Of a stretch of DNA of 64,000 bases, positions 4,841 to 51,117 are shown in pieces (positions within the stretch are counted from its first letter, which is position 1; the number at the start of each line of letters is the position of its first letter). Below the pieces are notes generated by a model, which ran no database searches, had not been told where the DNA came from, and saw nothing but the letters and a program-made list of their open reading frames with translations. The translations under genes were made by a program, and so were the position numbers. This DNA comes from Chloroflexota bacterium (GTDB lineage Bacteria; Chloroflexota; Dehalococcoidia; Lucifugimonadales; Lucifugimonadaceae): contig JAQCHZ010000001.1 in NCBI GenBank assembly GCA_027618835.1, forward strand, positions 1 to 64,000, read 5' to 3'.

Positions 4841-5692
4841 ATGCCGAATTTTGATTACGAAGCGCCAACCTCGCTAGCGAGTGCGCTTGAGCTATTAGCC
4901 CGCCCCGGCGAGGTGCGACCGCTCTCGGGCGGCACCGACATCATCGACCAGCTGAAGAGCAACCGACGTCATGCCGATCTCGTTGTCGACTTAAAGCGAG
5001 TTCCGGAACTGCTTACCCTGGAATCGAACGGCTCAGGCTTGCGAATCGGATCCGCCGTGTCGTGCACTGAAGTTCACAAGTACACAGCGGAAAAGGGCGG
5101 CTTCCCTGCCCTCTCAGAATCGACCGAACTTGTCGGTTCGATTCATATTCAGAACCGTGCAACCGTCGGCGGCAACCTATGTAACGCCGCTCCATCTGCC
5201 GACACGATTCCCGCTCTCCTCATCCACGAAGCGGTCGCACACACTGCTAACGCTTCAGGTGGACGCGAAATACCGCTGATAGATTTCTTTGCGGGTCCGG
5301 GTCAAACTGTTCTTGAAAAGGGCGAAATTCTCAAAGAGCTCGTGCTTCCTGCCCCTTCGAACAATACTGCTTCGGCTTACTTGCGATTCATTCCACGAAA
5401 CGAGATGGACATCGCAGTCGCCGGTGTGGGATGACTCATTGAGGTCGATCCCTCTACCAAGGTCGTCACCAAAGCTCGAATCGCTCTTGCATCTGTAGCA
5501 CCGACTCCAGTTCGGGCATATGCAGCGGAAGAGTTCCTCGAAGGCACCGTGATCGATGCAGCGGCGATCGACAAGACGGCCGACCTAGCTGTCGGTTCCG
5601 CCGTTCCGATCACCGACGTACGTGGATCAGCCGAATACCGAAAAGAATTGATCCGAGTTCTCACGAAACGAACTCTAAATATCTGCCTGTAG
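4841..5692 (+). pseudogene. CoxM-like FAD subunit with in-frame TGA
   Basis: Read through one TGA at 5432-5434, this frame encodes 283 codons, the normal size for the FAD-binding medium subunit of aerobic CO dehydrogenase/xanthine dehydrogenase-type enzymes. The N-terminal FAD motifs are present: LSGGTDIIDQLK near residue 28 and RATVGGNLCNAAPSADT near residue 107. The C-terminal CO-dehydrogenase flavoprotein domain (SVAPTPVRAYAAEEFLEG, then DVRGSAEYRKELIRVLTKR) continues in the same frame after the stop. The stop sits at GVG-stop-LIEVD, not at a redox residue, so a nonsense mutation or base error is likelier than selenocysteine. The FeS subunit gene starts 12 nt downstream. No catalytic large subunit is present in the window. 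Confidence 0.8.
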
Positions 5693-50658: not shown

Positions 50659-51006
50659 TCAAATTAGTTCGTCGTATGCGCCCTGCTTGAACCCAAACAC
50701 AATCTGATCGCCGTCAGTGAGTATTGGACGTCTGATCAACCGAGGCTGCTCCAGCATCAACTCGATAAGCTCGTCGTCGGTCGCTTTGCCGCGGAGTTCC
50801 CTAAACGGCTTTGAACTTGGACTCTTCCACGCAAACATTTCATCTATCGACGTAAGATCGCTCAGTTTTTTGATTTCGTCAGCCGAAAATTGTTCCTTGA
50901 AGAAATCACGAAATGCGTACTCTGTGTTAGATTCGTCGAGAGCCCGACGGGCTTTCTGGCACGTACTTCAACGAGACCAACAGTAAAACTTTAGTTCTTT
51001 AGACAC
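50659..51006 (-). CDS. Spx/ArsC-like thioredoxin-fold protein, candidate selenoprotein
   Basis: Starts at GTG 51006 with AGGAG about 7 nt upstream and encodes 115 codons with one internal TGA at 50970-50968. The product reads KELKFYCWSR-(TGA)-STCQKARRALDE, then FRDFFKEQFSADEIKKL, MFAWKSPSSKPFRELR and, near the end, PRLIRRPILTDGDQIVFGF. This is the ArsC/Spx family layout, in which the CxxC redox motif opens after the first beta strand. The TGA falls exactly on the first Cys of that motif (U-S-T-C). A 5-bp hairpin AGCCC-GTC-GGGCT begins 14 nt after the TGA, with its G-first loop 19 nt after, within the bacterial SECIS range. Insertion of selenocysteine is inferred; a TGC-to-TGA nonsense mutation is the alternative. 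Confidence 0.65.
50941..50953 (-). promoter_or_regulatory. Possible bacterial SECIS hairpin
   Basis: On the minus strand AGCCC-GTC-GGGCT forms a stem with a 3-nt loop starting with G, 19 nt after the in-frame TGA at 50968. Two further pairs form below after one mismatch. Bacterial SECIS elements are short hairpins just 3' of UGA with a G early in the apical loop, so position and form fit, but such small hairpins also arise by chance. Confidence 0.4.
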
Positions 51007-51117
51007 TCGCTACTCCTAGATGATGTGAACCAACTACAACTAAGCAAAGCATTACGCCACACTTATTGCTACCGTAACAATGTGCGAAGCCATCCAACGT
51101 TGCGAACTTGATGCTAG

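Follow-up and report, generated by a model that had tools for sequence, protein, structure and literature searches.

The locus raises the question of whether an in-frame TGA near the start of a short ArsC/Spx-type reading frame is a selenocysteine (Sec) codon or the mark of a damaged gene. The frame lies within a 64,000-nucleotide stretch of contig JAQCHZ010000001.1 (assembly GCA_027618835.1, positions 1 to 64,000), referred to here as the window. The SAR202 cluster is abundant and ranks among the major lineages of the dark ocean. The closest named relatives of the host were SAR202 Chloroflexota of Candidatus Lucifugimonas, which is placed in Dehalococcoidia, SAR202 cluster, and Candidatus Lucifugimonas marina JH1073 (CP046147.1) carried the gene at 80% identity.

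An ArsC/Spx-family frame with an internal TGA codon

The putative selenoprotein gene was located on the minus strand at positions 50659–51006 and would encode 115 residues, Sec13 included, followed by a stop codon. Direct reading of the sequence identified an AGGAG ribosome-binding site (51013–51017) 6 nt 5' of the GTG start codon (51004–51006). The GTG opens a run of 12 codons, which is followed by the in-frame TGA (50968–50970), 102 further codons and the terminal stop TGA (50661–50659). In the alignment of genes from the same genus (n = 18), the start codon was GTG in ten, ATG in four and TTG in four. The internal TGA occupies the first position of a CxxC motif (YCWSR-U-STC, i.e. U-S-T-C). 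The second Cys of this motif is encoded by a TGC codon (50959–50961) as Cys16, the presumed resolving cysteine of the resulting UxxC centre, which was invariant in the alignments made and was replaced by Ser in a single locus (L051) belonging to neither alignment.

The homology to the ArsC family runs across the TGA, as the match to Pfam PF03960 covered residues 8–113 (E = 3.8e-16, 59.6 bits versus a cut-off of 24). The earlier note, made from the sequence alone, was thus correct regarding the coordinates of the gene, the GTG start, the ribosome site, the codon runs, the replacement of the first Cys by TGA and the ArsC/Spx homology in one frame; the strand, which it had left unstated, is minus. 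This gene was the sole PF03960 match in the host genome (88.94% complete). The list of open reading frames of the window under translation table 11 contained no frame of 70 or more residues for it, so the only ArsC-family member of this genome would easily be missed by gene callers.

Conservation of the TGA codon in relatives

The set of relatives comprised 60 genomes, with the host genome included, and the ArsC/Spx-type gene was present in 43 of them. The earlier note had proposed to establish whether the aligned codon of orthologs is TGA or TGC. Forty-two relatives could be compared at this site, and the codon was TGA in 41 of them and TGC in one (locus L052 of genome G028); in the remaining gene-bearing genome (G003), the site fell past the contig end. 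Neither TAA nor TAG was reported at this site among the gene-bearing relatives of the 60 genomes searched. An in-frame TGA 12 codons from a start is unremarkable by itself; since it is conserved in nearly all relatives with the site, it reflects more than chance.

The same pattern extended to wider sets. Across the 95 loci that include the site, TGA was present in 80 and a Cys codon in 15. Of the loci considered, L109 was left out as a duplicate of the window, L126 gave no match and L048 lacked the site. Among the 24 named loci, the 13 close ones had TGA, the complete chromosome CP046147.1 being one of these records; TGC or TGT was present in the other 11, which are distant and include nine from Nitrospira. 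The 13 close named loci (L059–L071) partly come from the same genomes as other loci, as L061 and L032 (genome G013) share identical coordinates, and they are therefore not independent counts. Since L061 is the CP046147.1 record and G013 belongs to the genus of the window, the host falls within Candidatus Lucifugimonas or beside it. When 400 Chloroflexota genomes were searched with alignment A4 as the query, at least 137 matched at E ≤ 1e-3, many of them weakly and over a short stretch. Among the matches listed, 45 rows reached E ≤ 1e-20, of which 41 contained one TGA and four contained none; the position of the TGA was confirmed on the loci that were fetched, and the other rows provide a TGA count alone. 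The four rows without TGA corresponded to three Cys genes (G243, G286 and G356) and to one piece of the gene in G312, the other piece of which contained the TGA.

The window itself offered an internal control. It contained 101 open reading frames split by TGA; the best 60 of the 101 were judged by eye, and one of them, a CoxM-like frame (4841–5689, plus strand) with a TGA at 5432, was compared across genomes. Pfam placed FAD_binding_5 before this stop and CO_deh_flav_C after it. The stop was found in the host genome only among the 21 genomes searched, and the frame was open in all 12 of the other genomes of the same genus. The CoxM-like TGA is therefore private and, judging by this comparison, represents either a nonsense mutation or a sequence error, which sets it apart in nature from the TGA of the ArsC-type gene and indicates that the comparison distinguishes the two cases. 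The earlier claim that the window holds genes with true nonsense mutations accordingly agreed with the CoxM-like frame as far as a private change is concerned, and the alternative raised there, a mutated TGC in the ArsC-type gene, is excluded, as the TGA in that gene is conserved.

The single Cys-type gene among the relatives (L052, positions 1531–1578 in G028) is an apparent replacement of Sec by Cys. No hairpin signal was detected downstream of its Cys codon (hairpin score of 7.0), yet the 45 nt folded well otherwise (−16.9 kcal/mol), and the genome retains selA.

The SECIS-like hairpin and the selenocysteine machinery

Bacterial SECIS elements are hairpins located just after the UGA, with a loop that has a leading G. 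A hairpin of this kind was located at positions 50938–50956 of the minus strand, where bases +12, +13 and +15 to +19 after the UGA pair with +23 to +27, +29 and +30. Its stem (AGCCC-GUC-GGGCU) closes a GUC triloop (50948–50946), which is placed 19 nt downstream of the UGA, with G as its first base. The single-sequence fold of the 66 nt holding the hairpin was not exceptional (z = −0.45), and the hairpin was therefore revealed by comparison only. An Rfam search of 601 bases around the gene gave no match.

The order-level alignment consisted of 24 UGA genes from outside the genus of the window, with a stem formed by +16 to +22 and +28 to +34; the Cys sequence L052 was left out of alignment A1. 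In this stem, 89.9% of the cells were paired, and four pairs were changed on both sides, with 12 such cells versus a shuffle mean of 3.2. Neither the share of paired cells nor the covariation score was reached in any of 500 shuffles, and the stem in register (89.9% paired, score 0.327) surpassed all slid versions, which did not go beyond 68.5% and 0.209. Two measures were weak: the four doubly changed pairs were reached by 29 of 500 shuffles, with two slid versions having five, and the nine further pair types were reached by 47 of 500. RNAalifold, run without a given structure, recovered six of the seven order-level pairs and added one covarying pair (A-U in nine sequences, C-G in nine), leaving a triloop. 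The genus stem (n = 18), located four bases closer to the UGA, had 99.2% of its cells paired, and its score was reached by three of 500 shuffles. Synonymous conservation within the genus was highest at codons +4 to +9 among all six-codon windows of the gene. A fixed hairpin score averaged 17.3 after the UGA versus 11.2 elsewhere in the same genes for 65 distinct UGA sequences, and 9.6 versus 10.0, i.e. no excess, for 14 Cys homologs; identical downstream stretches were merged to obtain these numbers, and the score limits follow the bacterial SECIS rule given above. The p-values for both synonymous conservation and the hairpin score treat related sequences as independent. The hairpin described in the earlier note was thus present as stated, and the SECIS search suggested there yielded a SECIS-like hairpin with compensatory changes. 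The register of the hairpin differed by genus, with the loop starting at +20 in the genus of the window and near +24 in the majority of the other order-level sequences; L050 and L054 had another arrangement.

The host genome (2.4 Mb in 41 contigs, 88.94% complete) contained selA (513 bits versus a cut-off of 268), selB (318 versus 242), selD (366 versus 125), whose frame holds one TGA, and a tRNA-Sec (66.4 versus 47; anticodon tca), all above the curated cut-offs. A tRNA-Ser also scored just above the cut-off of the tRNA-Sec model (48.4 bits), and ARAGORN distinguished the two. The Sec system that the earlier note had surmised for this organism is thus encoded in the same genome as the gene. 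The SelD gene itself (L016, contig C41 of the host genome), with its TGA in the context CAGUAGK, is a selenoprotein candidate as well.

Among the relatives, selA was present in 42 of the 43 genomes with the ArsC/Spx-type gene versus 11 of the 17 without it (Fisher p = 0.0014, with relatedness ignored). In the phylum set, all 41 genomes with a strong TGA row had selA at E = 7.6e-147 or better (matched by hand). Of the genomes with Cys genes, G286 and G356 had selA, and G243 was absent among the selA matches listed. One genome with the UGA gene (G026, 86% complete) gave no selA over the cut-off. This co-occurrence is supportive but weak evidence, because the genomes are related and because selA is common in the phylum. 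selA was above its cut-off in 321 of the 400 sampled Chloroflexota genomes, and Sec use looks widespread in Chloroflexota.

Taken together, the comparisons make it very probable that the gene encodes a selenoprotein whose UGA is decoded as Sec. A pseudogene or an assembly error, in which TGC was mutated or misread to TGA, has a negligible probability: the private TGA of the CoxM-like gene indicates that such changes occur in this window, and the conservation of the ArsC-type TGA, both in the relatives and in the 13 named records that include CP046147.1, refutes this explanation. It is equally hard to credit that UGA is recoded as Trp or that a plain stop is read through without selenium. The in-frame TGA is all that this reading has in its favour, and it is opposed by the use of TGA as the terminal stop in seven of the 18 genus genes, by the restriction of the site to TGA and Cys codons in the 95 loci and by the presence of a tRNA-Sec with anticodon tca. 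UGA would instead be translated as Sec by means of the cell's own SelA, SelB, SelD and tRNA-Sec, with decoding directed by the hairpin.

Protein family, predicted role and known counterparts

Besides PF03960, the protein passed the cut-off of TIGR01617 (arsC_related, Spx/MgsR family; 80.2 versus 75.05 bits). It remained below the cut-offs of three Spx-specific NCBIfam models (44.4, 39.2 and 36.4 bits versus 123, 159 and 152) and of TIGR00014, arsenate reductase of the glutaredoxin type (34.7 versus 106.05 bits). The AlphaFold2 model had a mean pLDDT of 80.8 and a pTM of 0.72, with a weak C-terminal block. Its best Foldseek match was Spx in an activation complex (7f75_G, E = 3.6e-8), followed by 2kok (ArsC-related) and other ArsC/Spx entries. 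In alignment A4 (37 sequences), the invariant positions were the Sec/Cys position, the second Cys, the RP of an RRP motif, one Leu and one Gly. Two other assignments were rejected. A plain glutaredoxin was disfavoured by PF00462 (22.3 versus 22.9 bits) and by the rank of the first glutaredoxin in the Foldseek list (E = 1.7e-2). The family NF041106 was passed by none of the 400 Chloroflexota genomes and not by the protein studied here (38.1 bits versus 85); the search nonetheless pointed to distant UGA homologs.

The Pfam-identified neighbours of the gene were SecA, ribose-phosphate pyrophosphokinase, enoyl-CoA hydratase, an MFS transporter and LytB/IspH. Each of secA, prs, enoyl-CoA hydratase, MFS and LytB was matched in 12 of the 13 named genus loci (one hydratase match was short), and outside the family one of 16 loci (L085) had any of them. 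These named neighbours suggest no substrate or function for the gene.

The product is predicted to consist of a single domain of ArsC/Spx fold that carries a UxxC redox centre. A substrate in oxidised form (disulfide, peroxide or oxyanion) would be attacked by the Sec13 selenolate. Cys16 would then resolve the intermediate, giving a selenenyl sulfide, and the Sec13-Cys16 pair would be reset by thioredoxin or a comparable reductant. The protein may thus serve as a general redox enzyme of SAR202 Chloroflexota rather than as a dedicated arsenate reductase. The joint statement that it is a selenoprotein and also has a thioredoxin-coupled oxidoreductase role is likely to be right.

Two other roles were considered for the product. 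A selenium-dependent arsenate reductase of the glutaredoxin/ArsC class is doubtful. The protein belongs to the Pfam ArsC family and its Sec13 aligns with the first Cys of the Nitrospira homologs, all 22 members of whose alignment matched TIGR00014 at E ≤ 0.001; the protein itself, however, fell far below the cut-off of that model, and no ars gene was present among the named neighbours at the locus. A seleno-Spx, i.e. a regulator that binds the RNA polymerase alpha subunit and uses Sec13-Cys16 as a fast redox switch, is improbable. The passed TIGR01617 cut-off, the best Foldseek match and the conserved arginine of the RRP motif argue for it, and the failure of all three Spx-specific models argues against it. 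Furthermore, the position of Spx Gly52, counted from Cys10 of the printed Spx chain, fell in an alignment gap of the protein, and the RpoA of the host had Leu opposite a Tyr of the Bacillus chain 1z3e_B; this Tyr, the sole one in the aligned stretch, is taken to be Tyr263. Both Gly52, needed for binding of the alpha-CTD, and alpha Tyr263 are described in PMC2801614 as part of the contact between Spx and the polymerase. The interface known from Spx is thus lacking in both partners. A SAR202 seleno-Spx that senses oxidants by Sec13-Cys16 and acts on transcription via an interface unlike that of Bacillus Spx is more improbable still; if a seleno-Spx did exist, it would constitute a selenium-based transcription regulator in SAR202. 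The designation Spx-like given in the earlier note therefore stands for sequence family and fold and is not supported for the role of RNA polymerase regulator. Compared with Bacillus Spx, the predicted redox enzyme shares the fold, the position of the CxxC and the RRP motif, but Sec replaces Cys10 and both contact residues are absent.

Selenoproteins of this type have been listed before. 'Arsenate reductase 2' (cd03032, UxxC) was represented by 42 Sec sequences in the Global Ocean Sampling selenoproteome of 2008 (PMC2398784), and cd03032 is the ArsC_Spx entry according to PMC8755942; thus, the protein type was already known from seawater metagenomes. The likeness, based on the description given there, consists of a marine origin, the ArsC/Spx subfamily and UxxC. 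In contrast to the gene studied here, 'Arsenate reductase 2' is known from metagenome reads, and the terms Spx, Chloroflexi and SAR202 occur zero times in the main text of PMC2398784. The 'Arsenate reductase-like protein' (COG1393, UxxC) in a table of the review PMC9312934 shares the ArsC family and UxxC by its description. NF041106 (ArsC_rel_Se_1, ArsC family (seleno)protein) likewise represents a Sec-containing ArsC relative, but the protein matches it weakly. The selenoproteins of Desulfotalea and Desulfuromonas described in PMC1794560 are ArsC-like with Sec too, but belong to Deltaproteobacteria. SelA and SelB have been mentioned in sponge symbionts in the text of PMC5649159. In the open-licence literature, supplements aside, no description of an ArsC/Spx-type selenoprotein in SAR202 was found. 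The presented data suggest that, in an ArsC/Spx-type gene, UGA is read as Sec by SAR202 and by many further members of Chloroflexota, and a UxxC selenoprotein known from seawater reads can thereby be assigned to a host group and placed in its genomic context. Two features of the family lend themselves to study, namely the shifts in SECIS register and the Cys versions that lack the hairpin signal.
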